Assembly (NCBI GenBank): GCA_963930775.1
Contig: OZ005689.1
Span: forward strand, 31,649,235 to 31,713,234
Source of the DNA: Cliona cf. orientalis
Lineage: Eukaryota; Porifera; Demospongiae; Clionaida; Clionaidae
DNA length: 64,000 nucleotides
Direction of reading: 5' to 3'
In this document: in pieces, positions 1,278-41,051 of the stretch
Layout: every line of letters starts with the position of its first letter
Numbering within the stretch: the first letter of the stretch is position 1
Notes under the pieces: model-generated
Told to the model about the DNA's origin: nothing
The model's database searches: none
What the model saw: only the letters and a program-made list of their open reading frames with translations
Translations under genes and position numbers: made by a program

Positions 1278-1280
<3 letters not shown>

Positions 1281-1313
<33 letters not shown>

Positions 1314-2905: not shown

Positions 2906-2913
2906 CCATTTAG

Positions 2914-7933: not shown

Positions 7934-7944
7934 CACAGAAAAAA

Positions 7945-8215
7945 ATGGTGTGCTATTTTGGTGTTTGTCAATGTGCTGAAGTAGCACAGTACTGTGCTGT
8001 TTACTAATTCAGCACACATAGTGTGTTGTTTCATTTGAACATAGCACAGTAAGTGTGCTGTTTGACTATCCATCAGCACACAACTGTGTAGTTTTAAAAC
8101 AGGTGCTAATTAGCCTTATCTAGGTGTGTTAAATTGGGTGTGCTAAATGTACTGAAGTGTGCTGAAAATAACACTTTGTGCTAAATTAGCACAAAGTGTG
8201 CTGTTTCAATGACCA
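7945..8215. repeat. left subterminal repeat cluster of the CACAG element
   Basis: At least ten copies of TGTGCT or its complement AGCACA in both orientations, for example around 7945, 8014, 8042 and 8155-8200. Likely transposase-binding sites, as in other CACTA-type elements (inference). Confidence 0.65.
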
Positions 8216-8596
8216 TGAGCTATAATTGTGTGTCAAACTAAAGGGCCAGGAAATGGATCTGGCCAGAGTAGTACAATGTCATAATAATATTATTATAATT
8301 ATTATCCTGAATTTGCGTATATATCAATTTGAAAATGTCTAATGTCACTTATGTTGGTGACGTAACAGAGGTGTTAGAATCACGTCACACAAAATTTGAT
8401 AAGTGGCACTTCACCCTTTGTCGATATGAGCACTTGATCACCCGATTCTGATTCCACACACTAAAGTGAACTGGCAGGGATGTTGGTAAGGCCAGAGGAA
8501 GTATTGTCGTACTGTACATATCATGTATAATTCAAAAAATCATATTGACATACATGTACGTTACAATTATAATAATAATAATTATTATGATCGAGC

Positions 8597-11500
8597 TCAA
8601 TAAAAGAGGGTGTGCTTGGCCCAGTGATCCTTTTCTATTAAATATGAACTATGAGCATGTTGTTTGATATGAAGGACCCCATGACAATACAGCTGGGTGG
8701 ACAAACACACCAAGGAATTACTTGTAACATCAACACAGATTGCTCTCAAGTTATTCACAAAGTCACTGATACTCAGTTTGTTGGTTATGAAAATCTTGAA
8801 ATCTTGATAGACATATACATGTGCTATCTGGGCATAGACGAATGGCAGGTCTCCGTGCTCATTATTGGATGTTATGCGTATCACTGAGCCTCGCTTGTAT
8901 GTAGTACCATGAATCTTCACACCTTTACAACTGCATAATAATAATACACAATACAATGATCGTAAACATTGAACAGTGGACACATGTATACACACAGTGA
9001 CACACACACAACTGTCAATCGTACATGTACACACACACACACACACACATACACGTACACACACATATACATGTACACACACATACATTTGTTGGTAGTT
9101 GCCTAGCAACCAAAGTTTTTATAGGTAATTTGCTGGCTACGGAAAGGGGGTGGGTCATCATGAGTAGGCTAATGATGAACAGAGGTCACCTACCAACAAA
9201 TGAGTGATCTGACAGTAATTGGGCCCGGGGTGCATTCGACCATGCATCTCATGCACCCAACTACTGTCAGATAACCATTATTTGTACACACCTCAATAGT
9301 TCCAATGACTCTTTGCCTGATGGAGCCTCTCCACACAAGAAAAGAATTTCCTCCACATATTCATTCACTTCTGTCACTGATCCTACAAGTATGTACACAT
9401 ACATGTGTAGAATAAGGACAATATCAATACAACATTGTTCCTTTTACCTACCTGATATGACTTCATCTCCAGAGTAAAAGAAATTTGACACAGTTTGGCT
9501 GGGATGTATTGCTAGCTGGTGACATATCCACTGCTGATGGTGAATTGCTACAGTGAGTGGCACATTTCTGAACGATGATGATACAAATCGCTTGATTTGA
9601 GCATTTTTCGACTCAAATCGCATGCACCAGTGTTGCCTGAGTGGGCCAAACCTATAAAGAATAGTACATGTACATGTACATGTATATGACATTGTACATG
9701 TAATATTGATGAAGTAAAAACTGACATCAGTATTTGCTTTGGTAGATGGACCAGGTAATGCATCTTTGGTGTCACCGAAGCTCCATACAGACTCGTGAAA
9801 GCCTCCAGATACGTTTCTATCAGCCACCCGAGGTGAGTGGCATCATCTGTTGTCAGTTCAAAGGAGCATACAACACTGCAAATGTCCCACAGTAGCAGAA
9901 AACACTCCCAGTGATCATCATCATGGTCTACCAAATCACCAATGAACAAAGGAAGATGTCTGACTAGGGTCATCATCTGAGAAGCTATGAATGTTTACAT
10001 TATTATGTACATATTACTATTTACACATACTCAGAAAACCATTAATTTTATGTATTATATATTAGAAAATAAGACATGAATTAAAAATAAATTTTGTACT
10101 AGTCTCCCATACTACAGCCCATTTACTCTAGAAGAAGAAAGGATCTGGTCAAATTGATCACACTAATGCATCAGGTTGGAATGCCAATTTTGGTGAGTAT
10201 TAAATAGAAACAACCCATATATTGTGTGTGTACATGGTCTGGGCGTACACATGGAAGTACTAACTACAAATATATGCCTATGTATAGGGTACATGTAATT
10301 ACATTCCAATAATATCATGTGACTTACGCTTCAACCTGTTGGGACGCAGTATACGTGTATGTACATGTACATATACGCGTACCTCGATTGAGGATCGACA
10401 AGGAAGTTGACCCTTTGACCAGACCCTTTCTCGTGTGTGCTGGCATGTGCATAATGTGCATCATGACACATGTGCAATTTTGTTACGTACCTGATTGCTT
10501 AAAATGGAAGTCTGAATGAGAAGTTGACTCTCGACTGATTGGAGATGGTTTGGTGTCCACTTCTGAATAACCATAGTCGTGACTGCTGATAATATGGTTG
10601 AGGTCTCTGAGGCAGAATAGCTGGCACTTGTCAATTACATGATGAAGGAGATGATTGATGTGGTTTGACGCCACACCCTCAAACACTGTGTGCATAACAT
10701 CAAATGGAAGACATTTGGTAATGTCAAATCCAGTCAGGTCCTTGAGTGGGCTGGCACGGTTGATACCATACGTTGCAGAGTCATGACTTGCTCCTTCAGT
10801 TATCAGGTCAAGGTGATCACCATAGGTTGTCAAGTTTCGTTCAATAAACTCTGATGCATGAAACTAATTCAAACAGAGATACAGTGTATGTAACATTGTA
10901 CACACAATTTAAATATACATGTACATGTAGTTGTCAATACCTTGGACGACATATCTGGGAGTGTAGCCAAACATTGCCTGCACTTCCTCAGTGAGAACCC
11001 TACTCCTTCCTTGAAGCCACCGATGTAACAGCTAGCTGGTGTGTCACCACAGAAGCAAACAACTGCTCCATGAAGAACTACAGTCTCATCCCTCAATTTC
11101 AAGGAAAAACCTTCATCCTACAGTGTGTGTATGTAAGCTGATAAGGCAGAATACAAGTCCATGCGAACATACACATGCAGCTCTAATTAGAACCCACCTT
11201 TCCAAGGGTATTGATACTTGAAATGAAATTCTGGATCAATCCATATCGACGAATATCTGAATTTTTTGCGACTGAAATCAGTTGTATTGCTTGAAGTCGT
11301 GAACGAAATATAGGCCGAATATTCCCCAATGTGTAATAAAACACACCTGCAGTTGACATATATGTATTGTACATTAAACAGAATAACATAAACACTGTAT
11401 GCTACCATACCTAACTTGTGTTTTCCAGCTTTCGCGCCTAGGGGATTGGCTACTTCTATTTCATCATAGTACATGATGAACTGGAGAGCATCAGGATACT

Positions 11501-12718
11501 TCGAGAATACCTCATGGTTTCGGAAAAAGTCTCCATCACAAAAGTCCCTCAGAATACCACCAGTGCTAGTATGAGTTGTGGCAATCTCTTGTCTTACAGC
11601 AGGATTGCTCAGCAAAGTCTGAAATTGATGCTACAATGAAATTTATACATCTCACATATATTATAGCTAGTGTACACCGTGCGAATTGCGAGTTTTTGTA
11701 CATTTCGCAATTAATAGATTCGCAAACGTAAACGTACACGTATACTACAGTATGGTACGGGGTCGTCTATCACAATTATTGGATTCGCAATTTGGCCTGA
11801 CTTGACTACAACGCAATTATTAAACTACGCAATTAAAACCTGTCCTACATGTATGCATGTACATCACACTTAAACTGATGTACCTACATGTACCTGTAGC
11901 CCAGCAAACAGGTCCACTTCGTACCCATAGTGTTTTGTCTCCACTAGCTTTCTCTGTCCATTCAGTACAGCCCATTTCCATTCCGTTCCCAAGACAATAG
12001 GTGTTGGTTCCTACAGCACATCCAATAAGGGACTATTTAAATTACATGTAAACTGACCTACATGTACATGTAATCCACAATATTGATCTTACCACATAGT
12101 TGAAGTGATCACAGTAGTACTTCTCTCTACTGTATCTAGATTTCAGCCCAGCAAATAAGTCTCCAGGAATACACTCTTGTAAGATATCTTTCCTATGTTG
12201 TGCATCAACACTTGGTGGCAAACTAGCTTCAACCCGATTCGAAATCTGTGAGCAAATCTTCTCAACAAACCATTGTGTGGAATCACAAAAATTGTCCACA
12301 CCGGCATGAGTAAGAGAATGTTCTTCAGTCATACGTAGCAGGAAACGAGCACTTTCCCAATGCTGGTCAACCTCTTCTTCGTTGTCTGCTGAGTGTTGAT
12401 CATCAAACCAATCATCCACTGGGTCACTACCACTCGCACTGGAAGAGGGGGGCTCACTGGAGGCTACAGCACACACACACGCACACACAAACATTCCAAA
12501 GTAAAACAATACAGTCTCACTTTTCTAAACTTACTTGGATGAGAACGATGTAAGTGTTTCTTTAAAGAGCACCACTTTCTGTAGGTTCGGCCACACAAAC
12601 TGCAACTCACTTGGAAGTTGGCATCATTCTCGTGGATTTCACGTAAATGTTTCAGAAGGGCTCTCTCATCACGACACCCGTAGTCACATAAGTGACAAAA
12701 CGTAGTGGTAGTTGACAT
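8597..12718 (-). CDS. 11-exon transposase with N-terminal C2H2 zinc fingers (820 aa predicted)
   Basis: Exons (minus): 12718-12535, 12463-12093, 12010-11894, 11618-11411, 11346-11198, 11117-10941, 10863-10491, 9984-9726, 9651-9452, 9382-9292, 8930-8597. They sum to 2463 nt with consistent phases and no internal stop. The N-terminus has two C2H2-type fingers (FCHLCDYGC...HLREIH; CSLCGRTY...HLHRSH), then an acidic linker. The core contains MYYDEIEVANPLGAKAGKHK, LGNIRPIFRS, a GGFK...CRQC segment, LPFDVMHTVFEGVA and FGPLRQHWCMRFESKN. I know these motifs from unclassified animal transposases related to CACTA/EnSpm-type elements; no catalytic triad is assigned here. It shares a 189-bp divergent upstream region with the SAM-domain gene. 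Intactness suggests a young element. Confidence 0.8.
9001..9088. repeat. (CA)n-rich microsatellite in transposase intron
   Basis: Interrupted CA/TACA repeats between exons 10 and 11 of the transposase gene. Confidence 0.8.
11672..11850. mobile_element. short MITE, TACCGTAGG family, copy 1
   Basis: Contains the shared internal sequence with GTACGGGGTCGTC and AATTTGGCCTGACTTGACTA seen in the copies at 21940-22986 and 57829-57993. Its terminal TACCGTAGG/CCTACGGTA motifs are degraded. It lies in an intron of the transposase gene, so it inserted after or travelled with the big element. Confidence 0.7.
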
Positions 12719-12907
12719 AGTGGATCATGGACATGCCTACCTAACCCTAACCACTTGTTCTAAATAACGCACACTTTTGAGTGCAATGTTACTTTTCGCG
12801 TAAATAGATGTGTAAAGTTGCTCCATAATGCATAGCAGGTGTCATTTTTTCGAATTGAACGCGGGAGTTAACTTTTTGAGAAGAAGGTGCTGCTAAACTG
12901 TCTTATA
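12719..12907. promoter_or_regulatory. shared divergent upstream region of the two genes in the CACAG element
   Basis: 189 bp separate the two opposite ATG codons (12718 minus, 12908 plus). No clear TATA box is seen. A bidirectional promoter is the simplest inference. Confidence 0.5.
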
Positions 12908-15113
12908 ATGGAAAGACTAACTGTCAGTCAGGTCACATCTTTGTTGAGAGAGCAAGGTTTGCCTGAAGTGCTGTTGGATACTTTATCTGGTAAGTTTTCT
13001 ACCTGGAAGTATGCAAGTAGTGGACTATTTATAATACTGCCAGGCTAGTAAATTGTCATGTTTATTATTATAATCATAATACAATGTCATATTGATAAAA
13101 AGAGATGTATTTTGCATACATTGTAGCAAACTTTATTGATGGAGCAGCACTAACTGTACTCCCAAATGATTTCACGGAATTTTCACACCTCGTCCCCCAG
13201 AGTGGGTTGAGAATAAAGCTTAAAGCTGCTATTGAAACACTTATGACGAGGAGCTTAGAGCAGTTCTCTGAGGTTAGACAATATTTGATAGTGTTGTGTT
13301 GGTTTTGTACACCATATTAAATAAATAATACAAGTCAAAAATTATATTACCAGTATTATCACTCTTAGGATTCCTCACTTAATGGACTAGATGACACCTC
13401 ACTGGGAGAAACAGCTCGAATTATCTCCTCTAGCATGGCAACAACGGATCCAGTGGGCAAGGAAGAATGGCTAGATAATCTCTCTGATCTCAGTGTGTCC
13501 TCCCCACCTCAAGACTTGGTAAAGACCTCTACTCCAGTACCACCGTTAAAACGAAAACAGGATTTCCCTGACCCAGTTCCCAAACGAAAACGAGCTCTGA
13601 GCCCTGACAAAGAGAATCATGATCCTGACAAAACACCAACTAGACCAGATACTAGTGTATGCCGTCTTCCTGAACCGTGCCCACTACCAAACACCTTTTC
13701 ACGAAAGACAATGGATGCAATTGAGCGGGGAGAGCTGCTTGGAACTGCCAAGACCAGAATGTTAAGAGAAGCTGCTACATTTTATTTTGGTGTTTGCTCT
13801 GGCCGCTACTCTTCGGACTACATCACCATCGCCAAGACGCTGTGCAAGGAGTATCCCCAGCTAAAGGACAAAATGCCAACAAATGAAGAATACTGGGTAA
13901 GCTATCGTTGTAGTGTGGAATAAATCATAATGTGTGTATCTTATTCTTTTCCAGAAAACTGTGAAGGACTATATGAGTCAAAAGTTTCGAAATTTGCGCC
14001 GGAAATCTGAACCAGTACCTGCTGATGGCGAGGTGAAAGCCAAGATCATTACAGCACAGCATGCTACACCAGTGGTCGCTCGTCACCAATCATCACAGGA
14101 AGAAGGGGACGCTGTTGCCTACGAGCGGAATATCCAGTCACTGAAGGATGAACTGTCCAAAGGCAGCCCTAACAACAACAGGGTACACCAACTACTCAAG
14201 CTCACCCACGTCACAAGACGCAGACAGATAGAAGATAGTGACCTTCATGCAGTGCTACTGAAAGAAGAATATCCTTTCTTGGGCTTCAAAAAATGGGTAA
14301 GTATCTCTCTTTCCTTTCCTTCCTACCTCCCTTATTATCAGTTCTATGTGTGTTGGGATGGGGCCTCTAAGACCCTTCTCTTTGAGTAGGTGGGGCTGGC
14401 GTGCAAGTTTAGTGTGTGTGCATGACAGATTACTAAGCATACTTGTGTGTCTGCATGCACGGATGTTTGTATACACAACTCATGTATTATTCTATTTATA
14501 TTGTGTAGGTCAAAACAGAGTTTAATCTCTTGTGTGGAGAAGCTGCTGTGGAGACCATCACCAAAAACCTGCTCAAGTTTGCTCCTAAACTGCTTGAGTA
14601 CGGTGGATACCAGGTTCCTGAATCAATTGAAGAAAATGATATGATGAAGGTGATGGAGACCATTGACAAGTCTTTGAGAGGGTCTGGTCAGGGTGCTAAA
14701 GCACCTGGAGTTTATTCACTCTATGAAGTGAGTCAACCACTGTTGATTATGTTTTAGTTTAACCTCATCCCCTTTCACTTGAACAGGCTGGCACAGACGT
14801 TCATAGTGTACTCAAAGAGAAGGCATATACTGAGCCTCGCCTACTCATCTTTTTAAACAAGGCAAACCCCTCCCTAACCCAAGGATTTATTGCAGCGGAG
14901 AAAGAGCTGCTCTTTGAAGTTAGTGACTTCACTGTCACAGAAGGAATCATCTCACTAATAGCCACCTACTGGGCCTACCATATCCAGTATCCTAAACCAC
15001 TCCCTTCCCTCAATTTTATGTTATTCGTACAGGAAGTACTTTTGGAAAGGAAGGACGAAACTGGAGCACGAAAAGGTGCAAAGTATTCTAAACTTTTAAA
15101 TTATGTACTGTAG
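12908..15113 (+). CDS. SAM-domain transposon partner protein (SAMD3-like, 547 aa predicted, 6 exons)
   Basis: Exons: 12908-12989, 13127-13272, 13369-13896, 13955-14296, 14509-14727, 14787-15113. They total 1644 nt with matching phases and a TAG stop at 15111-15113. Residues 1-75 look like a SAM domain: SLLREQGLPEVLLDTL, then NFIDGAALTVL and an amphipathic last helix. A basic, Pro-rich linker with KRKRALSPDKEN (probable nuclear signal) follows. Next come GELLGTAKTRMLREAATF, YPQLKDK and a KFRNLRRK segment, all familiar from SAMD3-like proteins encoded by animal transposons. It is divergent from the transposase inside the same element, so a role as DNA-binding or regulatory accessory is likely but unproven. 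Confidence 0.75.
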
Positions 15114-15289
15114 TGACTCTGTTTACTGGTCTTAGCTGATTATTAAAGTGGTATTTATTTCAGAGGTCTTTTAAGCATCTTTTAAGTTTATTCATTTATT
15201 GCTTTTTGGTAATTATTGTTATTATTATGTACATACATGTATATTGAATGTCTGAGAATTTTGCTCTACTTTCAAAAAGTATGGACTAA

Positions 15290-15489
15290 TCAGCACACTT
15301 CTTGCATGACATTGTGCTAAGTTAGCACACATTTGGAAAAGCACATGTGCTTGTTTAGCACACTTCTAAAATAGCACACATGCTCATTTAGCACACCTTT
15401 CAATTTAGCACATGTGCAACGTGCTGAAACTGGAGACATTGGTTTAGCACATTTTTGTGTGTTGATATAGCACACTTGTTTTCTCTGTG
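15290..15489. repeat. right subterminal repeat cluster of the CACAG element
   Basis: About ten TTAGCACA / TGTGCTAA-type motifs in 200 bp, mirroring the left cluster. Confidence 0.65.
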
Positions 15490-15613
15490 TATGATAGGAG
15501 GTATAGTGTGTGCAACTGAAGAAATCCATTATTATTATTAGTTTAATGTGATTCACTTGTATTATGTATAAATATATAATAATATTAACCTCATTCGTTT
15601 ACAAATACCTTAG

Positions 15614-15778
15614 GCTGATCATTGTAGTCAGTCTAATATGCTGGAGGATATTCAAACTTGTAAAACAAAATGTGATCTAAAGGCAGGTAATCCCTCAGAC
15701 ATAATGGCCACAGCTTTCATGAGTATCAGTAAGAAGTGCATCCATCACAATTACAAGAAGAGGTGTAACATGTCAGAG
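15614..15778 (+). CDS. kinase gene 1, C-lobe exon displaced 8 kb by the transposon
   Basis: A 165-bp exon with 3' splice site TTAG and donor GTAAAT. Its product (ADHCSQSNMLEDI... DLKAGNPSDIMATAF... KKRCNMSE) aligns along its length with exon 15 of kinase 2 (20805-20635), which reads VDYCTEAKLF... DLKAGIPSDIMAETF... KKRCTMST. It is therefore the continuation of the plus-strand kinase at 4889-7397. The exon equivalent to kinase 2 exon 14 and a final exon were not found, so the gene may be incomplete. Confidence 0.75.
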
Positions 15779-16430
15779 GTAAATATATAGCATAATAATA
15801 TTATTATGGCTAACACTATATAATGACCAAATAATATTATCATTATAATATTATATATAAATAATTATATGTTCAGATCATTTGTATGTGGAGCTGTGTA
15901 TCTGATTCCACCATGGATATATAGATCAAGCAACTAGATAGTATATACTATTATAGAGAACTATATTCATCGTACACTGTCAGTGACTGATCCATTGCCT
16001 TATTATCGGGATGAAACTAGTGTGTGCATGCATGTAGCTAATGAAATTCAATCAGAATCTGATTATTATTAAGTTTACCAGTATGTTACTATGATATATA
16101 TAATATAATATAATACTGATATAGTATACAAAACTAATTGTTGTGATAATAATATTATTATTGTAGCAGTAATAGTGCTAAAGATGCACATTGTTTATGA
16201 GAAACTTATAGATTTGAATCCAGTTTGTGTGTGTAACATCCCGGTGTAAGTCTACATTAAATCTTGCTTTGGTTATTCCATTGCAAACAGTGTAAAAATG
16301 CTCATCAAAAAATGGTGGTGGTTGTTTCCTCACATATATGAAATAATAATTGTAAATGTGATTGGTGTACGATAATCTTCAGCCTCTATAATATTATAAA
16401 TTAAATTGCAGTGCTATAATAATAATATTA
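15779..16430. other. no gene recognised
   Basis: AT-rich with many aataatattatt and tatataat palindromes. The final exon of kinase 1 should lie near here but I could not identify it. Confidence 0.4.
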
Positions 16431-16609
16431 TATTTCTCTTACCAAATTCTTCTGGCATGTCAAACATATCCTCAGGGATACCTGAAGGACACTCAATGCT
16501 TCTATTATACCTTATTCTATGCGAGTTCCAATATGCGACAAAGTCCAATAGCTCTTGCTCGAGCATAGTGACTTATACAACAGGCAAACATTTCCTGCCA
16601 TGTTCATTG

Positions 16610-17556
16610 CAGTATTATACACTAAGCCCTCACTTTTGCCTGATTGTGGAATGTGATTCAGTAGTAACCACTAATTACGTTATCTTGCATTTGCGGTGCT
16701 TCGCGCGCGCGCCGCGCCATATATTGGAGTGTATCGGCAACGCCCACACTTACTCTTCGTGACGTCACAAGGTCCTGAGGCCGGCCAGAAGCAAGAGAAA
16801 AATGGTCCTGGTCGACATTTTGCAAGTTCATATTCAACACGAGCAAGGGATTTAGCCAAGGATATTGCACTGGGCAACTCTCGAGGTCAAACTGTCCATG
16901 TGATCTTCATATGACTTGGCTCTGACCTTTTGCATCAAGTTGTCCAGTAAGCTGAAATCGAGCTAGCCACGAGTGTGGCGATTTATTGGTGAGCGATCGG
17001 CTCCATATCTCAACAATGAAGAGAGTTGAAGAAACGAAACTTCTTCCATCCTTTAGTAGTTGTAAAACTAATCTCTATGTGAGTCAGCTAGTCTACAGAG
17101 CTGTTTATACTATGACAGTACGTTATTGAATATAAATTATTTTCATTTTTCATGACCTTCTAATTCAACAAACACAGTAAATATTACTTAGTCAAGCAAA
17201 TATACTATACTGCTAGTGGTACTCTCCTTCCAGCTGAAGTATGAAAGCCTCAGCAGTCTTCGCATCAGGTTGTCCAGAATGTTGAAAATGAGTTGGCCAA
17301 ACATTTACGGCCGACATTCGGCCTTGTATAGCGAGGTAGCTACGCTTTGCAAATTGGATACGAACTGGACGTGCCCATATGTTGTTTAGCTAGTCTTCTT
17401 ACAGTCTGCTGTGTTTCACAACCCAGGAATATACCAGTAGCCAGAAACTAAACTTTTTTGTCATGCATGTTGACCACGATCGCGGTCTCCATATGTTCAA
17501 TACAGCAACCGCAAACCGGAAGTGATCAGGCAAAAGCGAGGGCTTAGCGTATACTG
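16610..17556. mobile_element. 947-bp TIR element, CAGTATACGCTAAGCCC family, copy 1
   Basis: Ends are CAGTATTATACACTAAGCCC and, reversed, CAGTATACGCTAAGCCCTCG. TTG flanks both sides. A nearly identical copy lies at 50075-51017 and a fragment at 47602-47730. No transposase frame inside; it contains a GC-rich CTTCGCGCGCGCGCCGCGCC stretch. It sits within the integrase-like gene. Confidence 0.8.
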
Positions 17557-18949
17557 TTGTAAAAAAATTAATAATAACATCTAATAGATGTGCATGCGGT
17601 TTCTTTATTTACCGGTGAATAGTATCTTGTGGATCAAAATATCCATCTTGCTGTAAGTTCTATGATCAACAACATTATAAGTTAAACAAGTAGCTATTAT
17701 AATAATATAGCATATGTATAATAATATAATATTATGTACCTGCATGCATGCATGTACATAATATTATACGTATATATACCATGCAGTATACAATGTACTA
17801 TCTATAATATAGGCATGCGTATATATACACTATTACAATACCTTCAATGATGATATCCACCATCCAATCTTCATCATTCTCAGCTTTGACCACCAGGATT
17901 CAATTCTCTAAAATTTAATAATAATATTATACTAATAGCTATCATGCATGCATGTTTATAATAATATTATACTGAATTGGTTGGGGATGAACCATATCGT
18001 ACACTACCAGCTCCAGCTAGATTGTCCGAGTGATTCATTCTTAAGGCAACCTGAGCTTCTGCAATTAAACTGTTTTCAATACCACGATCAAATCTCATGA
18101 CACACGGACACCCTATATATTATATAATTATATTAACAGTTTATGCATGTATGCATGCGTTCAGACTGATGTCAGAGGTATATAATAATTATAATAATGA
18201 TACACAATGTCATTATTTATTATGAAAGCGCACAAGCCAATACTCACCATTTAAGGTATGTATACTATCCAAAAAGTATCCAAGTGTCACCGCTGGAGCT
18301 CTGTTAGTGGTCGCTAATGTCAGCCAGATGATCTTCCTTGAGAAACTTTTATCATGAATATTGTATGAATAATATTACATTCTGTATCATAGCTTATTAT
18401 TATAATGCTCACCCATCAATGCAGCCATGAATAAAAAAAACCAAATGTTGACAACTTGTCGTACTGGTCGACATGCCAAGCATAATTGGGTCCCTATAGA
18501 TTATAATATTATTATTACACATTGATACAAAAACCATTGCATGCATGGTCTAGCTTAAAATTTGTACAACAAAAATTAATTAAAGCTTACCTTACTGGTA
18601 TAGACTCTACGTATAATTCTATGACGAGCTCTTTCACGTACACCAACAGGATCTATTTGTCTCAGTACCAGCATAACTGTGCTCCTATACCATGGCAGAA
18701 TTAATAATATTATTCATAGTCATGCATGCATATATCACGTCAATAATTTATAGGTACACAATCATAACTATAGCATTATGCCGCCGATGATTCACAAAAT
18801 TGATATTATAAAACCTTTTCACTTGTAATCCATATTTATCCTTCAGAATTCTCCACATTATTCTATATCCAACATGTTCATTTGATGTGTTGAGCTCATG
18901 CTGTAATGATTAACAAACTATGATCCGTGACTGAATGTATGGTGCATGA

Positions 18950-19850
18950 CAGAGAACCATGCATAATTATAATAAATATGGTTTGCGTGCATTCAAAATT
19001 AATACTATAATATATTATAATAATGTCATTATTCTGCTTCATCATATTCTTTACAATGTCATGCCTGACATGTTATTATATTATTGTATTAGCTATACAC
19101 CAAATTATTTAATAATAGCAACTTACAGTTACTGTTATATGCAGTCTTACTCCATGCAAAATAGCTATTGGCTCGCGATTGCGATCGAGTGACGGCTTCC
19201 TGGGCTCGAGCCCAGGGGTTCGTGCTTGATCCTTACTAAGGTAAGCAATGCGCTGCCATGCAGTCACATGATTCGGGGCGAGCCTGAGCGAGCCCCGAAT
19301 ACACGAGGTACAGGAAGCGGTTTTATATGTATATATATATATATATATGTTTGTGGGGTGATCATTTCAGTGAGGAGAGAGTTAAATTTTTAACGCGTAA
19401 GGTAATGGTCGTCATGCGCATGCGCATACGCCTGCACTGCACCATCGATCTGAGAGACAACTCGAGTGTAGGCATGGCATAAAACTGGAAAGGTGAGTGC
19501 TGTACCACTCTGGCAAGGCTCAGGTCCACGATTAGCATCACTGGTAGACTCCACTTTCCTGAGCATGAAGATGACTGCATGGAGGCTTATTCCCTCAGGG
19601 CCTGGCTACAGGTACTTGGACTCATGGTCATGGCATGTAGACCATCAACATTATTGGACTAGCTTTTGCCATTATACTAGCAATCTGTGATACTTTCACT
19701 GTTGTGGTAGCTTCTCAGTCCTAGCTATTGGGGTACCAACCCTATGTGCGCACGTATACTTGTGTGACTCTTGTGACTTTGGCGAAGGCTCGCCCCGCAC
19801 AGATGATTTTCATCACCACTAGTATATAGTTTACAATCACATGCATTATA
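18950..19850. other. long intron of the integrase-like gene with palindromes
   Basis: Holds an 18-bp perfect palindrome CCTGGGCTCGAGCCCAGG (19199-19216), an inverted repeat ATTCGGGGC/GCCCCGAAT (about 19270-19300) and a TA dinucleotide run (19326-19349). No exon seen. Confidence 0.5.
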
Positions 19851-20514
19851 TTTCTTAAATTTTAGCTCAGTATTATAGCTACATGCACTGTGAGTATAAT
19901 ATAGATCTAAAGTATACCCATACCATGATGCAGTTGGTAATAATAGAGACTCCTGTGTACGCACGAGAACGTCTACGAAGGCCTAACCGTGCATATTGTC
20001 CTTTTAGCCATCTCAAGCTAAAATGCAGATATCCATATTATAATGTTATCATACAGAAATTATATATACTCAGACAAGCATGCATGCAGCCTTCAATATA
20101 TTATCATTTTATACCTACGACGAATTCCATGGACACTACGAAGTCGTTGCAAAATCACCTTGTATGAAACGCCACGAATGAAATAAATTAGTGAATAGTT
20201 CTGCCATGCATGTACGGTTATTATTAGAAGTCAAGGATTAATGATGCTAATATATACCGTCCAATTCTCTAGGAGAGAGCGCGGCAGAAGTCATCCTGCA
20301 TGTACGACATCGATCCTCGAGCAGCACTTGGTAAGTATCGTCAACAGTATAAGTAAAATTAATATCGATAACAAATTAATTTTAATAATGGGCAACCACA
20401 ATACAATCGGTAAACAATAATTAATAAATGAATTGAGTGCCTGAATGTTTGAAGACTTCATGAGTACAATTATTTTAAGAATGCTTGCATGAAGGTATAT
20501 CCTAGCTATCAGTG

Positions 20515-23500
20515 TCAATCATCTGTGGACTGCCTCAGTACAGCTGACCACATTTCAATAACCTGCGTATAGGAGGTATAATAATTATATCAGAGTTAAT
20601 AGTTCTCTACTATAATACTATTGAATATACTGACCGTTGACATAGTACATCTCTTCTTGTATAAACGCTGAGCACACTTCGTGCCTATTTTTATAAAAGT
20701 TTCAGCCATTATATCTGATGGAATGCCGGCCTTAAGGTCACTCATTGCTTTACAAGATATGTCCACCTTCTCGTCAAATAACTTTGCTTCAGTACAGTAA
20801 TCCACCTGCATGAAAAGCAATCAAAATTTATTTCATTCTTGCATGATACATGATACATGCTGAGTATTCAACAGCACTCACAAAATTCAGTTGCTATAAT
20901 ATTAAAACTGATTGCCCAAGTACACAATTATACTAAAAACTCACCAATTTCTCTTCTTCACGTTGCTCAGAATATACAAGGAGTCCAGTGTAAGTTTCTA
21001 AGCAAACCTTGATCAACCGAATAATCATCCATATACAATAATAATCATAGTTTTTATACTTACTACACCATAGCCATATACATCACTAAGGGGACTACGT
21101 TTGCCGTCATTAAACTCAGGGGGTGTGTACCCACGAGAACTAGCTAATCCAACAGCTCCAGCAGCAGTTACTACTGTGGTACAACCAACATTAGTAGACG
21201 TGGGAGTGACGAAACCAAAATCAGCCACTTTTGCAGTATTGAGGGCATCCAGCAGTATAGTTTGTCTTCATGGTATATAAAATCAACATCAGATTCTATA
21301 CTCTATATATTATACTAATCAATAGTTACGATTTAATATCTTGATGGATAAAAGGAGGATGTGAAGAATGGAGGTAGGCAATACCGCAGGCTGTACCATG
21401 CAATATATGTACTCGCTGGTCCCAGGTGAGGGGATTATCAACCTATATACAATGTCATAACAAAATTACTGGATTATACGACACATAAATTGCATCAACT
21501 GCATAGTGCAATCACTGCCAAAACATTACGATGGGCAACCCCATATCATCAACATTATTATTATTATAATGTATAGTATACCCTGGTACACATTAATAGT
21601 ATTATCTGTATTATATGCAGTACCATGAATCATCAGTGACCTTTACCTTGTAAGTATGAAGGCGATGGTATAGACATTTGTTGTGCATATATGGATACAC
21701 AAGCATTTTGGGGGCTTCGCAGTATCCCATGAGTGTAATAAGATTGGGATGCCTAAATCTGCATAATACCAAAAACACTGTCAGATGGAGCCAATTATAA
21801 TATGCATGCTTATCCAATATCTTCATAACCTGGAGAGGTTGCTTATTTCAGTTGACATTGAAGGTACTCCTGGGGTTGACTCTCTGTCAATCTATTGGAT
21901 AAAGGCACTGTAACAAGCATTAATCTTACATAATTAATATACCGTAGGTCGGGTTTTAAATGCGAATATCTATTAATTGAAAGGTTTTCTATATTTAGCA
22001 ATTAATAGATTCGCGAACATAAACATGCACGTACAGTCAACTCTCTCTTAGCGGACGCTCCGAATAGCGGACTCACACGTTATAGCGGACACTGCTCCAT
22101 GCACGGATTGATTTCCATATTATTACTGTACAAAAAAACTCCCGAATAACGGACTCTCTGGTTTCCGGACAGCGGACACTTCGGATTGAACGCTGTAATA
22201 CAATACAATGATAATCGTTTCCTGAATAACGGACAGTGGGCGGGGCATAGCATGCATGCATGGCATCATGATTCAGGTGGTTGACATTGATGACGCAGTA
22301 CAGTTAGGCTCTCTGATTCAAAGTGCCATGGGTGAATCAAGTTGCTCTGCCGAGGAGTATGTTGCTGGAGAAGATGCTATCCCCGTGTGTGCTGACTTTG
22401 ATTGTGAAGACTGGGATGAGAATTGGTTGAACAGTTTGAACGTCGACAATCCCGATCAGTTCTGATACTGAGGAAGTAGATTATGATCTACTACCGCCAC
22501 CACCCTAATTAACATGTTTTAAGCAAGCTATTGAAGCTCTGGAGGATGTACAAGCATTCTTGGAACACCGAGGCTATGTTGAGCAAGCAACATCTGTAGG
22601 AAAAGTGATGATCAGTTAATCTAGCTGGCATTATAGTGTTCATAATTATACTCAGACTAGCTACAATTGATCAATACTTTTCATAATGATAGTTTTTGAG
22701 GTGCTGAGTCATTGAATTCTCATATTAAACATGTTAACATCATTTGAGTCATTGATATTATTATTTTAAACATTATTAAGCATGAATTTCACAAAACTCC
22801 CCAATAGAGGACACTCTCTAAATACAGGACAAAGGCTGTCGTACCAAAGTGTCCGCTATTCGGAGAGTTGACTGTATACTATAGTACGGTATGGGGTCGT
22901 CCGTCGCAATTATTGAATTCGCAATTTGGCCTGACTTGACTAGAACGCAATTATTAAACTAGGCAATTAAAACCCGTCCTACGGTATCCCAGTTGCAGAC
23001 CTTGTATGCACTATATTGACGACCTTTTACCACAAGCATGCACCATTATATAATAATAGCTATGTAGCTACTGGGGGATAATGAAAACATTCATATTAAT
23101 ATACTCACCTCAAACACCTTGACAGCAACTGCCAATCCTTCATAACAACCTTTGTACACTCTGCCAAATCCTCCCTTTCCAATAAGATGGGAAAAGGATG
23201 AAGTAGCTTCAACGATCTCTTTATTAGAGAATTCACGCACGAGCGCTCCGGCTGCTTTGGCTATAAGGAGGTCTCTATGATAATAATAGGCCCAATAGTA
23301 TTAGAGTTAACACATACAATCACTTGATTTGGGATCTGAACTATGGGGTATGCTTCCACCTTCTGCTCTGGGATCAACATCATGTGGTGCAACACTGGTA
23401 CCTTCTGGTGTAGTATGTGGTGTTGGACCACTATCACCAGAGGAATCATACAACATATCTGTATTTTCATGATAACTATTATGATTGTATGTGAATATCT

Positions 23501-26162
23501 ATTAAAGGTTGACACAATCTTTGGTTTTCAGCCCCCCCCCCCCCCCCCCCCCCCATTATTATGCAAAATTATGTTTATTCCTGGTCCTAGTGTATATTAT
23601 ATCCTAGTGCTTTGTTGGTCAGTTGTCCAGTGGAAAGAATAAACAGGCATTCGGGATTCCAGACAATAATATTTATCTGCAATGTGGTTTGTAAGTGTAC
23701 CTATGCATATCATGATTGTGGTATAATGGCACAAGCCAGAGGAATTTCCATTATCTATACATGAAAGGCAGAACCACACACCTTTAGAAACCCACAATAC
23801 AGCTGACTATGACTCCACAAAACAGACATTTCCTCACCACAAGCACTCTACTTTAAATTAGTATGCAACCAGGGTACATGTGGTTTACAATGTAGCTACG
23901 TTTGAAGTATCATAGTACCAAATAGATAATCATGCATGCAGAAAGTTTTGTCATACCATCAGAAACATGAATGCTCCCAGAACGGCATTTGGCACTGTTG
24001 TCCTTATTTTCAACCGTACATCTGTACGTACCACTTTTCGTCACATACAGTACTGGACTACACTGGCGTAAGAACCAGGGGGGCTGGGGGGGGGGGGGGG
24101 GGGGCAATTGCCCCCCCAGTCATAAGATTGGGGGGGCAGAGCCCCTCTGATTTTTAGACTGCATACTGTACAAGCCAGGGGGTGGGGCTCACCCTCTGAG
24201 GTTTGCACTTTTCTTTTTCATCTGTTGCCACAATCAGGGTTGAGTTATTCATGATTGTGGTGTATCTTAGCCCCACGGTGTGTAGATATCAATAATTGTC
24301 ACATGTGACAAGCTAAGAGTCCAGAATGTCCTCGAAAATGCACTAGAAAAGCTCTCAGAAGGTCTAAAACTCCAAAATTTTCCTGGGGGAGCATGCCCCC
24401 AGATCCCCCTAGCTTTCGCGCGCTACGCGCATGTAAAGCGAATCTTCACCTCCTTATTTTCAGCCCCCCTGCTCAAAAACATCTTCCTACGCCACTGCTG
24501 GACCATACAACCCCACATTTCCTTTGATATTATCCCAGTGGTATCTATACTTGGATGAGTGATGTGAAGCTATACAGAACAAGGGCATAACTGGACCATC
24601 AAGGGCGCAATCCTTGCTCTGGTGAACTACACAAAAGGATTCTGCAGGAATCAATTCTTATAATTCATCATCACAAACCTGTTGTCCACTTACCCTTATC
24701 GTCATAAACACTGAAGCCACTACCATTATAATTCAAAACAGTTGTACCCTCTGCAGGTAATAATTAAGGTTGCTAATTAAAACAAATGATTATGCATGCA
24801 TTAATTTACCATACTCAATTTTGCAAACATCATATCCCGACTGTTCTGGGTACCACGGTACTGGTTTGTCCATACAAGAAATAGGTAGAGATAGAGAATT
24901 TACAGATTTCCAAATATCTGAGCGTGCTTTCATGTGGGTAGAATCCAAGCCCATGATCCCAATGTTTGGTGCGTACCACACTATAATTCAGTATAGGTAC
25001 CATTTGAGATTGAGCAAGTGTAAGAGTAATACCTTTCAGCTGGCTCTCAGTATGCTTTTGCCTTTTGCCAGGAAGGTCTGCAGCTGACTCCAAATTAAAA
25101 TGTTAGCACCTGGGTGTATATATTTAACTACTTTTGATTAGAAATAAGGCTTCACTGCAGGCTACATGCAAAATTTAATGGTAAAGGGTCACTTCAATAT
25201 TAAGCAACCAGAATACATACCTCAAACATCCCAATACCAAGCTTAACTTGGGTTTGCTTATGAAATGTATGTTTCACATAAGTCGCTATGGTCCATGGAC
25301 ATTCCTCATCATTGATAAGCAATGGCTGATCTAGCACTCTGGTTCCACTAACTCTGCAAATTTGTGGAACGTCATACCCATCCTCGTCTTCCCATTCACA
25401 AGCTAGGCCTTGTACTGCTTTATGGACGCATTCAGCATACGTTTCATCTCCGGAAAAGGAGATTTCAACGTAGTCATCTACTTTAGCCAAACCACCTTTC
25501 CGTCCTCGCACCATCTTACAAGAAAAAAAAAAACGATTTTAATAACTAGCATATCATGTGGTCCAAGAATGTTCATGGTATACTTCATACACCATAGCCT
25601 CCCCCCTCCACCAAACCGCCACAACCACCATCACCTTTCCTCCAGAATTCTTCTTGTATACGACATGTAGACAACCCGAACCCGAACTTCACACACACAC
25701 ACACACACACACACATACATACATACACTCACACACAAAACATGTATACATGTGATACTTGGTGTTGTACACACTTCGAGGTAGGTATTTTTTATATGTA
25801 TATTAATATTATAGCAAGGTACATACAGTGGTTTTACAACTTACATGCATTGCCTTTTTGCATGACTTTCTACCCACTGACTTGCTCATAGCTAGCCTTG
25901 TACTACGTGCCTTAGCTATTACAGCACGATCATCTTTGAAAATTAGCATAAAAAGAAATGCAGTAAAATTATAGCATCACAAGAAATAAAAATAAGAGTT
26001 ACCTTCACTTAAAAAGTCAGATGAAGTGGATGAAGAAGGGTGTGGAGAGCTCGATCCAGACAGTGGAATAGTTTCATTCAAGATGTCCACGATGGTACTT
26101 TTAAGTGACGTTTGGAGTTTATCAGCTATTTTATCCACCACTGCTTTCTTTCTGCCGGCCAT
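20515..26162 (-). CDS. kinase gene 2: Ig-like domain plus RLK/Pelle/IRAK-type kinase, 16 exons, one exon split by a transposon
   Basis: Exons: 26162-26003, 25933-25845, 25514-25221, 25087-25033, 24980-24810, 24750-24694, 24641-23957 (split), 23458-23318, 23260-23109, 21891-21830, 21758-21647, 21442-21330, 21265-21064, 21007-20945, 20805-20635, 20562-20515. Phases agree throughout. Without the insert the total is 2130 nt, 709 aa. Start MAGRKKAVVDKIADKL has no signal peptide. Exons 3-6 are of unknown fold. Exon 7 is Ig-like (LFCIAS, YHWD, SGTYRCTV). Exon 8 is a Ser/Pro/Asp-rich linker. Kinase: IGKGGFGRVYKG, VAVK, TEISNLSRFRHPNL, IHQDIKS, VADFGFV, GYTPPEF, SDVYGYGV; all key residues are present. 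No membrane segment was found, so an intracellular Ig-kinase is possible (compare the cytoplasmic Ig domains of MALT1). The family acts in innate signalling in animals; that role is inference here. Confidence 0.8.
22034..22874 (+). mobile_element. 841-bp pogo/Tigger-type element nested at TA
   Basis: Ends CAGTCAACTCTC and GAGAGTTGACTG are flanked by TA on both sides (22032-22033, 22875-22876). The interior repeats AGCGGAC/CGGACA motifs typical of pogo/Tigger termini. An internal frame (22256-22465) is short and acidic and probably the remnant of a transposase C-terminus. Confidence 0.85.
22256..22465 (+). pseudogene. remnant transposase C-terminus in the Tigger-type element
   Basis: About 69 codons, strongly acidic (DFDCEDWDENW), without a catalytic domain. 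Tigger/pogo transposases end in an acidic tail, which is the basis for the call. No helix-turn-helix or DDE part remains. Confidence 0.45.
23530..23553. repeat. C-homopolymer in kinase 2 intron
   Basis: About 22 consecutive C between exons 7 and 8. Confidence 0.9.
24061..24497. mobile_element. 437-bp hAT-like MITE inserted in the Ig-domain exon of kinase 2
   Basis: Left end CACTGGCGTAAGAA and reversed right end CAGTGGCGTAGGAA are inverted. Flanks are CTGGACTA (24053-24060) and CTGGACCA (24498-24505), 8-bp direct repeats with one mismatch, the hAT target length. Read through on the minus strand it introduces stops. Taking out the element and one flank copy gives a 240-bp exon whose phases match both neighbours. 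It contains a G-run near 24086-24103 and a CGCGCGCTACGCGC stretch. Confidence 0.9.
25688..25715. repeat. (CA)n microsatellite in kinase 2 intron
   Basis: ACAC run between exons 2 and 3 of kinase 2. Confidence 0.85.
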
Positions 26163-26172
26163 AATATAGATC

Positions 26173-26542
26173 CAGAGGAGGTAGGACACGCTTGACCTTT
26201 GGCTAATAGTTCACTAATTAAATCGCTAGTATAGGCTTTCGTGAAGGTTTTTAGAGAAAATCGTTGTGATTTTCGAACTCAGCGCTATTGATTTAGTGGG
26301 GGGAGACCCTCTTAGTTAGCACTGTAGAGCAATTTTTAGGTCCTTGGAATGTTAATCAGCCGCTTTGATTAACATTCCAAAGACCTAAAAATTGTGCTAA
26401 TAAAGAGGGGCTCCCCCACTAAATCAATAGCGCTGAGTTCGAAAATCACAACGATATCCTCTTAAAATCTTCACGAAAGCCTACAATAGCAATTTAATTA
26501 GTGAACTATTAGCCAAAGGTCAAACGTGTCCTACCTCCTCTG
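26173..26542. mobile_element. 370-bp foldback (MULE-type) element with 9-bp target duplication, just upstream of the kinase 2 start
   Basis: Arms 26173-26357 and 26367-26542 are long inverted repeats with few differences and a 9-nt loop; termini CAGAGGAGGTAGGACACG. Exact 9-bp direct repeats ATATAGATC flank it (26164-26172, 26543-26551). A 9-bp duplication and long arms are the signature of Mutator-like elements. The kinase 2 start codon is 26162-26160, so the insertion lies almost at the ATG. Confidence 0.9.
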
Positions 26543-26994: not shown

Positions 26995-28910
26995 TGGAAA
27001 TCGAAGCGCACGATAGGAAACTAGCTTCATTGCCCTTTAAGGCTACTGTAGTTGAGCTGTTTGAGCGTCTGAAGCTACCTGTGTTTGATGGTGTTCAGGC
27101 TGCTCTGGAGACATTCAATCGACAGAGAAAGATGTATTTAGATCAGGAAAAGACCGATTCCTCCAAGCAGAGGCGAATACAGTTAAAAAGTGAGCAAACA
27201 GTGGATGCACAGTGTCGCAAGCTGTGGTCAAAGAAGCATGGCCACGATACCTACGGCAGTGACGACAGTGACATAGACGAAGATGAACTCAAACGAAAAG
27301 GACAGAAGAAGCGTACAACTGGAGGGACGTGCAAGTGTGGGTCCACCACTCACCTATGTACCAACCATAGTGAATGTCCTTTGAACGTCAAAAATCAGAG
27401 AAGTGGTGTTTCTGTGGATGACAGAGCATCTGACAATAATGATGTCATTTCCTATTCTGAGGATACCCTGTCAGACGCAGAAAGCATTTCTTTGGAAAAA
27501 AGTGTGCCTACCCCAACTGGTGACACTAGTTGGTGTTTTGAAGATAACGTAATAAGTGGTATCTGCGTGTGCGGAGCACTTGGACGAGCACACAAGAGGG
27601 ATTGCCCCTCAAACTCACAAAATCGTTACGTTGGGTGCACATTGTTTCCCAAGGCCTCTTCTGCTGACTCTGACAAGAATGGCAAGGATGATGCTTGTGT
27701 GAAATCCAAACCTCCTAAAGCAAGCAAGCCGGTCGATACGAGGTCCACTCGTCGAGGAAAGAGAGAAAAGCCAGGTGGTGAGAAGCCTCCCCCAGCGAAA
27801 AAGCCTAGGCCCAACTTCAAGGTGGGTGACTGCGTGAATTTGCATGATAGCAAATTGGGCAAATGTCACCTTCCTTGCTGCGTTGTGCAAGTGTTTGGTG
27901 ATCGATGCCTACTATGTTGTCACAAGGGAGTTCTCACTACTGGCTATGCAAAGGGGCAGTTGACGGCTATCAGCGGTGATCTATCCATTTCAGTAGACAA
28001 CTGGCGAACTGCAGGAAGGATCTCACTACGAGATGTAGCAAATGATTCTGCAAATCTCAAAGTGTGTAACTGTGGCCTAACCAAGACTGTTGTTGAGCAT
28101 GTTGTTGACCTGACTGACGATCCCACAGCCTTGTCTTCAGCCGATGGTTCTGCAGTTGTAAGCAACACCTGGGTGTCCACTCCACTGTACACCTTGCACA
28201 TAGATAAGAAACGGGAAATTGTTTCATCTGATGGTTGGCTCTCAGACACAGTCATTAGGGTCGGTCAGTTGCTCATCTTGCAGGAATTCCCAAACATAGC
28301 CGGCCTGCAAGATCCGGCAGTTCACAGGAGTCTGTCGTTCCAAATCCTCATAGGAGAATTTGTGCAGATCATCTTTGTTGGAGGCTGTCACTGGTGTACT
28401 GTTTCCAACGTTGGATGTGACAATGGAGTGGTCAATGTGTACGACAGCATGTACTCCAGTGCTTCCAGTGGGACGGTCAAATTGATTGCCAGCCTTGTGT
28501 TCAGTCCTGCTAAACAGCTTGTAGTGAGAATGATGGATGTTGGAAGGCAGTCAAATGGTTCCGATTGTGGAGTCCTTGCCTTAGCATTTGCATACGACAT
28601 TTGCGGTGGTAATGACCCGTGCAAGATCAAGTACGATCACAGGTCTATGAGGCAGCACTTGGCAGAGTGCTTGGAGAAATGTCGCCTCTCTCGCTTCCCA
28701 GCGGTCGGCGAGCGCAGGACTGTTGGTGTCAGGCACACCCAGTCAGTGGACCTTCACTGCTCCTGCCGCTTGCCCGAGGAAATAGGTGATAAAATGGCCG
28801 AGTGCGATGTATGTAAAACCTGGTACCACAAACACTGTATGGACGTTCCTAACTATGTTTTTGAAAAAAAAGATGTCCCCTGGAAGTGTAAATCATGTGC
28901 CGCAGTGTGA
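26951..28910 (+). CDS. Ulp1-type cysteine protease with C-terminal PHD finger, transposon-encoded
   Basis: Open from 26951 to the stop at 28908-28910. No ATG precedes the LEAH-repeat segment; the first in-frame ATG is 27132 (MYLDQEKTD), so the true start is uncertain. Order: a short helical N-terminus, Cys-rich CKCGSTTHLCTNHSECP and ICVCGALGRAHKRDCP knuckles, a basic Pro/Lys stretch, then a C48 (Ulp1/SENP) domain. GGCHWCTVSN carries the His, VNVYDSM the Asp and RQSNGSDCGVLAL the Gln and Cys. The last 55 residues are a PHD finger: CSCRLPEE..DKMAECDVCKTWYHKHC...WKCKSC. Ulp1-like genes are known cargo of some MULEs. I infer that this is the left half of the same family whose transposase half lies at 2914-4516. 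The transposase is absent here. Confidence 0.8.
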
Positions 28911-28938
28911 AACTCTACCTAGTATTTTGTTGTATATA

Positions 28939-29150
28939 CCGTATTTCTTCTAAAAATTCGGCCCTTCTAATTATTCGGCACCCTTTACCGAATGATTGAA
29001 TATAGTCTCTAAGCAAAGGTCGTCTTGTGTATATGCTATAAACGGGAATGGAATGCGGACGCAGAGAGCATGTTGAATATTAACCTCTAAAAATTCGGCG
29101 AAGCTAAAGCAATATTATTATTTTCATGCCGAATTTTAGAAGAAATACAG
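28939..29150. mobile_element. 212-bp MITE with TA flanks, downstream of the Ulp1-PHD gene
   Basis: Left CCGTATTTCTTCTAAAAATT and reversed right CTGTATTTCTTCTAAAATTC are about 23-bp inverted repeats; TA at 28937-28938 and 29151-29152. Probably Tc1/mariner type. Confidence 0.85.
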
Positions 29151-29206
29151 TAGTTTACCCAGGTGTGGCCACATGTATTGATTACCAATCCATCCTCTCT
29201 CTCTTA

Positions 29207-29241
<35 letters not shown>

Positions 29242-31540
29242 TGCTCGTCTCAATGCTAATACATGTATGTGTACATGTCTATTACCATAATAATATTATT
29301 TTTTCTCAGTGTTATTTCTCTTCATACCTGTGTTTTCTTGAGTGGGCATGTCAACTCAATAAGCCTGACACAGGGAAGGTTTATGCAGTTGTAGGCTCTA
29401 CCTTCCTTGAATTTTGTTTTGGGGCTAAAAGTGGTTTCTGAATGTCAGGTCATAGGGTACAGGTACTGGTTATCAATCTTATCTGTATGCTTGTAGTGAC
29501 ACTGCCAAACCAGCTGACTGATTTTTTTTGCATAAGAAAGTACACAAATACCATGTCAGCAAATAGGGTTGTTCTCTGCTCTGCCATAATATCTAGATGT
29601 ACATGTATCTCTCCTCGTTGAAGTCAGTTGCCTGAAGCTCCCACCCTCAGGTGGCGTGACGAGTCGTTGATGGCTTCTGGTTTTCACATTGGAGATACGT
29701 TTCTCTCTTGTGTTCTCTATCCCAGTCTATACCACATGTATGTATGTTTATATTAATATGGCTGCATTCTCCCTCTCTGTATCATCTCAATACTTGTTTG
29801 TGTTGGGCACTTGGTACAGTTGTTTGTTGCCTGTTCAAAGCTGATTATATTACAGAGCAGTAGGTACAGTTATAGGTTACCGAGCAAAAATTTTATGAGT
29901 GAAAACGTAATATCAAATTGTATCATGTTGCTCTAAATATAATCTGCTCTACAGTACATGTGTTCTATCAGTATAATATTATTATTATAGTGTCATGGGC
30001 ACTTGCCTGGGACACTATGGTATTACCCCCGTATGCATAGTAAAGTAATCGGGTGGCTTGGCATTTTCTCTCTTTCTCCTCGTTGAAGTCAGCTGCCTGA
30101 AGCTCGGGTGGCATGATGAGTCGTTGATGGCTTCTAGTTTTCCCATCGGACTTATATTTCTCTCTCTGTTCTAAAAAAATTATCTGATATCAGCATAGAG
30201 GCAATCTTAGCGAGTGGTGAGTATATTATATTCATCAAAAATGTCAAAGCTGACGTTTATTTCACCTCGTAATGCTGACAAACTGTACAAATCACATCAG
30301 GTGTGCCATGTGCTGTTTCGACCGCATACTGCACATCTACATGTATATGACGCGTACATGTAAGTGAATGCAAGAGCTCACACTAGGCTACTAATTGTGC
30401 ACACGGGGTATGTGCTCTACAGAGCTCTCATTCCCTTTTTCTTGAAAACTGGCAGTCATGTTGATGTGCTCATTGTAACGTGGTGCTTGTAGTCACACTG
30501 TCTAGGTGTAAGGGTCAAGGAAGCTCATACTAGTGTCAGCCGCTATTATGTTTAGGCCGCTATCTTTACATCAATATGTATGTGCATTGTACACATTTAG
30601 CCTCCTCCATAAACCGAGGCAGTGTGGCCCGGGCTCTTAATATCGTGTGTTTATGTCGAGCTCCTCCAGGTACAGCATGATGGAGCACTTGTTGCTCCTG
30701 TCAGTGGAGATATATGGCATGTACTGATACAGACTTCGTTTTCTGTGGCGTTTTTGTGTTGGTGAATGGTCTGTATTGTGCTATATCTTTCCTCTCTTCT
30801 TGGAGCTCAGTCGGGACGAATGTGAAGGCTTGTTGTGTATGTATGTATGTAATGGCTGATTCTTGGCTGGTCAGCTTTGGATGATTTCGCTAGAGAATGT
30901 TTTCCAAAGCAGCTATGAGTACACATCTGATTTGTAATGAGAGTAGGGTGGGGACATACAATGTATATTAATTTGTGTGCTTACAGTTCGATCCAGGAAT
31001 CAGCCATTCCTTCTTTCTCTCCCTTGAATTTGAGCCGGGGCATTGTGTAGTAGACAAAATGCCTCGAGGGTCACCTGTGCATCTGCCTCCGCGTGGCGTG
31101 ACCTGGGATAGGAGTTACATGTGCATAGAAGTGTCTCCATAATCAGGTTCTAGTAGCTACTATAATATCATCCCTTCACTATAGTTTGTGGTTCCGTTGT
31201 ACATGTAACTCTGAAGCCAAAGGATGCACACCATCACTGTCTCTCGTGCCCAGCCCCCTTCATGCACGCGCGAGAAAGGGTCTGGTCAAAAGGGTTGCAC
31301 TTCCTTGTCCTCGAGGTACGTATATTGCGGCCCAATCAGATTGCAGAACCATGGTCACATGACATTAGTGGAATGTAATTATGTGTGGTATATACTACAC
31401 TGCTATAAGTACATGCGCTTATTAGCCAGATTTCACAGTAACTTTATTTCAATCCTATTGCAAAATAACGAAAACCATAAAATAATATTTATTAGCATAT
31501 TATGCAGTTATGACCATAAAGGGGAGTTGGTGAAGTAGGT
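29151..31540. other. non-coding, repeat-rich stretch
   Basis: Holds a (TC)n run (29213-29237) and a direct repeat of about 80-90 bp (29613-29703 and 30070-30152, core CCTCGTTGAAGTCAG and GTCGTTGATGGCTTCT). A segment at 30451-30530 recurs at 33563-33643. No gene seen. Confidence 0.5.
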
Positions 31541-40943: not shown

Positions 40944-41051
40944 AATGACTGAGAATGGCTACAATCATACAATTCACAAGATACAACAACAGAGACAAAT
41001 AACATTCTGATACAGAATCTGATATCCAGGCCTTAACTGTTTCTATAGAGG

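Follow-up and report, generated by a model that had tools for sequence, protein, structure and literature searches.

A short inverted-repeat element splits the Ig exon of a kinase gene that is probably cargo of an IS3EU-like transposon in Cliona cf. orientalis

In complete IS3EU families the ends are TA..TA and the target duplications are usually 6 bp long, according to the portion of PMC10045372 cited here. The IS3EU families of rust fungi have ends of the form TAYGG..CCRTA, and in all TET-carrying IS3EU families the TET/JBP gene lies between the transposase and alpha-kinase genes, as stated in the excerpt of PMC12730594 on which we draw. Alpha-kinase cargo in fungal IS3EU elements has already been published; among the literature entries listed, judged by titles and the openings of abstracts, none had an Ig or IRAK-type kinase as cargo of an IS3EU element. 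The same excerpt (PMC12730594) describes hAT5-type elements, which are hAT elements with 5-bp duplications, and a CMCT clade (with Transib), which has CA..TG ends and duplications of 2-5 bp.

Here we describe a locus in a window of 64,000 nucleotides, by which we mean the whole stretch of DNA that was analysed. This window comes from contig C1 of the 216.8-Mb genome of Cliona cf. orientalis. In it, a miniature inverted-repeat element (MITE) interrupts one exon of a kinase gene with an Ig domain. We consider it quite probable that this gene, of the IRAK/Pelle type, is cargo of an IS3EU-like transposon, and that the transposon copy on C1 was later hit by the MITE and gives no full-length protein.

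The transposon around the gene and its second copy

The candidate IS3EU-like transposon occupies 4493-27050 (22,558 bp) and has TA..TA ends. Its left terminal inverted repeat, TACGGTGGCCCGGAAGTGCAATGA, takes up 24 bp on the plus strand (4493-4516), and the right one, TACAGTAGCCTTAAAGGGCAATGA (27027-27050, minus strand), is identical to it at 18 of 24 positions; the inverted ends read TACGGTGGCC and TACAGTAGCC. The 6-bp target duplication GTTGAG stands at both junctions (4487-4492 on the left and 27051-27056 on the right), and four other copies of the repeat that was entered (L087-L090) have it once and run unbroken from GGTTGAG into CTGTTTG, which makes them empty sites. The entered repeat is multi-copy; the part of its ORF to the left of the transposon (2990-4492, plus strand) has no Pfam match, and its continuation on the right (27051-28907, plus strand) has a PHD finger (3.6e-06) and a sub-threshold Ulp1-type match. 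Pieces taken outside the transposon (1001-4400 and 27101-31500) match a long repeat, and among the matches listed most are on C1.

Inside the transposon lie the Ig-kinase gene (20515-25514, minus strand), a transposase gene of the rva_4 (integrase core) type in exon pieces (16417-20230, minus strand) and a second kinase gene (6310-15787, plus strand; pieces 6310-7406 and 15614-15787). The transposase pieces with counterparts in the copy on contig C2 are 16417-16572, 17970-18119, 18216-18374, 18579-18713, 19882-20037 and 20096-20230, and the joined exon pieces match Pfam rva_4 with an E of 1.7e-20. In its TA..TA ends and the length of its duplication the element fits IS3EU, to which the rva_4 transposase may also belong.

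The close copy on C2 is 13,953 bp long and has the same ends with different flanks; its gene order is kinase (plus), rva_4 transposase (minus) and Ig-kinase (minus). Several features speak against our reading: no 6-bp duplication is visible at this C2 copy, the right end, TACAG, departs from the TAYGG..CCRTA seen in fungal IS3EU, and a search with the transposon's left 498 bp matched nothing beyond the window, C2 and a 66-bp stretch of C7. Several segments of the C1 copy are absent from C2 (among them 7757-15575, 16610-17556, 19273-19822, 22034-22872, the MITE and a repeat at 26173-26542), and about 2 kb of transposon is found in the C2 copy only. The repeat at 26173-26542 is near-palindromic, about 370 bp long, with many copies that are 88-94% identical. 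The T-run in the transposase gene has 8 bases in the window and 7 in C2; from this difference and the extra nested insertions, the C1 copy looks to be decaying. A C-run at 23532-23554 has fewer bases in C2; its length may be polymorphic or prone to assembly error. Elsewhere in the window, on the minus strand at 39924-42836, stand ORFs which by eye we take to resemble a tyrosine recombinase (39924-40958) and a reverse transcriptase (41052-42836).

The split exon and the family of the inserted element

An earlier note on this DNA gave the Ig-kinase gene 16 exons and 709 codons; our model has 14 exons and, once the split exon is joined, 630 codons, and the two additional exons were not found in the gene. 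The note further held the gene to be otherwise intact, and the rest of the frame is indeed open, but the large transposon around the gene and the uninterrupted copy on C2 were missed. The product matches Pfam Pkinase at 3.2e-32. The best PDB relatives of its kinase domain are SymRK (2.1e-36) and IRAK4 (1.1e-35), and by these nearest matches we assign it to the RLK/Pelle (IRAK) type. By eye, VAVK still has its lysine and HQD and DFG their aspartates, and no membrane segment was seen in the model. A search for further copies of the gene with 24800-25700 returned the window and C2 only.

The split exon is assigned to an Ig domain through its homologues. A profile of five homologous Ig exons has as its best matches an Ig-like protein (5.3e-10) and MALT1 (8.2e-08), and with E allowed up to 1, all five members match both Ig_2 (best 2.1e-05) and Ig_3 (best 0.0074). 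Taken singly, the sequence of this exon stays below the Pfam cut-off: the C2 exon alone reaches 0.15 against Ig_2 and 0.094 against Ig_3, and the joined exon of the window has no Pfam match.

On the minus strand, the 5' half of this exon lies at 24498-24641 (144 nt; its Ig identity comes via the homologous exons) and the 3' half at 23957-24052 (96 nt), which adds up to 240 nt; the 14-exon model puts both exon ends in phase 1. The MITE that parts the halves is 437 bp long (24061-24497), has the ends CACTGGCGTAAGAACC and TTCCTACGCCACTG, and is flanked by CTGGACTA on the left (24053-24060) and CTGGACCA on the right (24498-24505), which agree at seven of eight bases. At the same position C2 reads CACATACAGTA-CTGGACCA-TACAACC, an exact empty site. 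Since this duplicate has a single target copy, CTGGACCA, and lacks the element, the changed base is in the left flank of the MITE. When the MITE and one flank are removed, a single open frame results; when the MITE is retained, the minus-strand frame runs GP-AVA-stop, ending after three element codons. Thus, the interruption of the Ig exon, the exon of 240 nt in phase, the frame opened by removal and the stops met with the element in place, all claimed in the earlier note, were reproduced.

The features of a MITE are all present, as the element is short and multi-copy and has inverted ends and target duplications. It matched at least 39 other places in the genome, counted among the 40 scored out of 1165 first-look candidates; with the window copy these make 40 copies, or 39 when L085, whose right end is unaligned, is left out. 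In the alignment, the end points are common to the copies of the family, and an AG close to the end is family-wide and not private to the window copy. The window copy differs from the family consensus at 6 of 426 sites (1.4%), with three private changes, and to judge from its sequences the family is young. A G-run of about 20 bases in the MITE (24085-24104) varies in length within the family and may be polymorphic or assembly-prone. Another copy, L060 (C1:8343866-8344339), also interrupts a kinase coding stretch, with the 5-bp duplication GCGTG, and its paralogue at C1:612761 spans the empty site with 98% identity (211/215).

As to the class of the element, exact 5-bp target duplications flank 33 of the 39 copies, and two more match at four of five bases. 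Only L053 has a perfect 8-bp duplication (8/8) among the 39 copies, and none was seen at L051 and L057 in this flank comparison; for the window copy, a 5-bp duplication CTGGA plus three additional bases is an alternative. The family therefore lacks the mark of a classical hAT, the 8-bp duplication being confined to L053 and, at 7/8, the window. The label of an 8-bp hAT-like MITE in the earlier note is only half right, because the flanks do agree at 7/8 over 8 bp but the family mostly makes 5-bp duplications, and hAT is not established. No autonomous hAT partner tied to the ends of the MITE was found among 148 hAT-domain matches in 150 scored candidates. By its sequence features, the family may be hAT5 or Transib-like.

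Fate of the interrupted copy

The C1 and C2 gene copies are 98-99% identical by substitutions, in counts that leave out large insertions and compare exon 2, at whose acceptor the copies have a 91-bp difference, only in part. In the coding region 22 of 1896 sites differ, with one in-frame 3-bp indel, and in aligned noncoding DNA 51 of 3000 sites differ, with 14 indels; the compared C2 exons have no stop and no frameshift. The open frame was considered as proof of function and set aside: a random change makes a stop in about 4.7% of cases, and with about 11 changes on the C1 lineage only about 0.5 chance stops are expected (0.8 at the noncoding rate), so that an open frame by itself proves little. 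Coding indels are depleted, with one in-frame event against 8.8 expected, and the lack of a frameshift on the C1 lineage alone has a P of 0.043. This shortage, which weighs against our reading, means that the C1 gene has probably been constrained during some or all of its history; the MITE may have arrived very recently, or it may be tolerated. The dN/dS is 0.41 for C1 against C2 (13 nonsynonymous and 9 synonymous changes) and 0.38 (8 and 6) for the N-terminal and kinase pieces of two further loci, C6:2.39 Mb against C1:29.86 Mb, whose transposase pieces show no change whatever; a row taking in an Ig range, where a wrong frame gave three stop codons, is left out of these figures. There is a modest excess of synonymous change (P 0.05 to 0.11 for the C1/C2 pair, 0.011 to 0.037 pooled), and purifying selection on the Ig-kinase copies is suggested, not strongly.

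We propose the following course of events. A large IS3EU-like transposon would carry the Ig and IRAK/Pelle-type kinase as cargo beside its transposase and the second kinase. One copy entered another repeat on C1, where GTTGAG is duplicated, and a close copy stands on C2. The young MITE then entered the Ig exon in the C1 copy alone; since it is absent from C2 at a clean empty site, it inserted after the copies separated, unless gene conversion took place. With the unspliced message stopping inside the element, the C1 copy is predicted to yield no full-length protein, the message being either destroyed or spliced past the 240-nt Ig exon with the frame kept.

What splicing might do to this message deserves attention, as the earlier note took the allele to be either null or rescued by a new intron. 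It would be null unless splicing rescues it, but in-frame skipping was overlooked: since the exon counts 240 nt and both its ends are in phase 1, leaving it out keeps the frame. Without the Ig domain, the C1 gene could in this way still be of use to the host or to the transposon, an outcome we regard as rather unlikely; constraint on the C1 gene after the insertion is inseparable from constraint before it. Splicing at the MITE's own ends, which would make the element a new intron (an introner), has a suitable geometry. On the gene strand the element starts CA/GT and finishes AG/TG, these terminal bases are common to the whole family, and own-end splicing would add 4 bp of element and the 8-bp duplication, which read by hand as four in-frame codons without a stop; identical arithmetic (4 + 8 = 12 bp, four amino acids) is given for Aureococcus introners in the section of PMC9860276 cited here. 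However, in a scoring matrix built from the 13 introns of the Ig-kinase gene alone, the end-borne donor GCA/GTGGCG scores -2.62, under all 13 natural donors, and the acceptor -0.97, under 12 of 13, and a second end-borne pair is also weak (donor 1.19, acceptor -2.37). Frames of at least 200 nt span the joined flanks of 17 of 39 MITE copies against 14.6 expected from swapped flanks, with no clear excess; at 400 nt the count is 4 against 3.3, and each of the five thresholds gave a count a little higher than the swapped flanks. Considering the weak splice sites at its ends, we give an introner role very little credence. Two cryptic sites of the exon, one 11 nt before the MITE and one 39 nt after it, would excise it together with 14 Ig codons and leave a shortened protein. 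No other in-frame pair scanned scores as well (the donor, at 5.25, exceeds 5 of the 13 natural sites and the acceptor, at 6.64, exceeds 8 of 13), with scores from a matrix of 13 introns of one gene, but the stretch lost holds residues invariant among five aligned Ig exons, and we think such a product unlikely.

The Ig-kinase could also be a host gene, with C1 and C2 related by segmental duplication or as a misplaced allele and with terminal repeats that arose by chance. Indeed, two copies about 98-99% identical could look like alleles, and the C2 copy has no target duplication. Against this stand the precise junctions, inverted ends that do not differ between the two copies, the differing flanks of C1 and C2, the 6-bp duplication with its four empty sites and the rva_4 transposase inside; moreover, none of 20,000 random 24-mers from the window matches the left transposon end at 18/24. 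Segmental duplication and a misplaced allele were dropped once the transposon junctions were read, and a host gene in this position seems highly improbable. We thus return to transposon cargo that a MITE has interrupted. A truncated unspliced message, poor sites at the MITE ends, a cryptic pair with a cost to the domain and a skip that keeps the frame together lead to an expected loss, and the C1 copy has probably lost its protein or its Ig domain.

Possible kinase cargo at other loci and kinase cargo in known elements

At C6:2.39 Mb and C1:29.86 Mb the transposase and the Ig-kinase adjoin, and where their pieces match the window proteins, the identity is 33 to 59%. These two loci are alike across the roughly 9.1 kb fetched, after which come short repeats, a TACGGTGGCC end (seen at the one end read) and differing flanks. 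Unlike in the window, the transposase and Ig-kinase are on opposite strands there, and no inverted end was found in the 4 kb left of the C6 transposase region. At C1:29.716 Mb the Ig gene starts 1.1 kb inside the ten bases TACGGTGGCC, but the kinase exons found there run on the opposite strand, and no match to rva_4 comes closer than 140 kb. An rva_4 match stands within 10 kb of four of nine Ig-kinase loci and within 50 kb of seven; for the other five, none was found within 10 kb. Since the four are two pairs of close copies, they represent two independent cases. Among eight spliced kinase loci of the Ig-kinase type, three are within 10 kb and six within 50 kb of rva_4; among other kinase rows, 0/123 are within 10 kb (0/83 and 0/40) and 1/123 within 50 kb, and for random points in the distal arm of C1 the values are 3.3% and 15%. 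The part of C1 beyond about 13.9 Mb has 61 of the 111 rows that match rva_4, each row being an exon piece and not a locus, in about 11% of the genome, and this arm seems transposon-rich.

The MITE insertion alone is an ordinary nested insertion. What looked like a host receptor-like kinase gene is, on present evidence, transposon cargo, and genes of this kind should be checked before they are counted as part of a host immune repertoire. It is possible, and we offer it tentatively, that an animal IS3EU-like lineage has long kept Ig and IRAK/Pelle-type kinases as functional cargo, perhaps targeting host immune or silencing pathways, in parallel to the alpha-kinase and TET cargo of fungi.

The MITE can be placed beside several known elements. 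One of its ends reads CAGTGGCGTA and resembles hAT ends. Maize Ds insertions can be spliced out of exons, and the MITE is likewise a non-autonomous element in an exon that may be removed from the RNA. The 5-bp duplications of its family (33/39 copies) resemble those of hAT5; the CMCT clade, as the excerpt describes it, shares the CA..TG ends and short duplications. The Aureococcus introners, in the section cited, have the same end geometry and the same 12 bp, or four codons, but here the splice sites are weak and coding flanks are not clearly enriched. As for the large transposon, it shares with IS3EU and GingerRoot the TA..TA ends (the left end here is TACGG), the 6-bp duplication and an integrase-type transposase; its right end, TACAG, is different. 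Like the fungal TET-carrying IS3EU elements, as far as the excerpt describes them, it has a kinase gene as cargo. In those fungi the cargo is an alpha-kinase and TET/JBP, whereas here it is two eukaryotic-type kinases, one of them Ig-bearing and IRAK/Pelle-related. Together with the kinase cargo of fungal IS3EU, this locus raises the testable question of why such transposons keep kinases.
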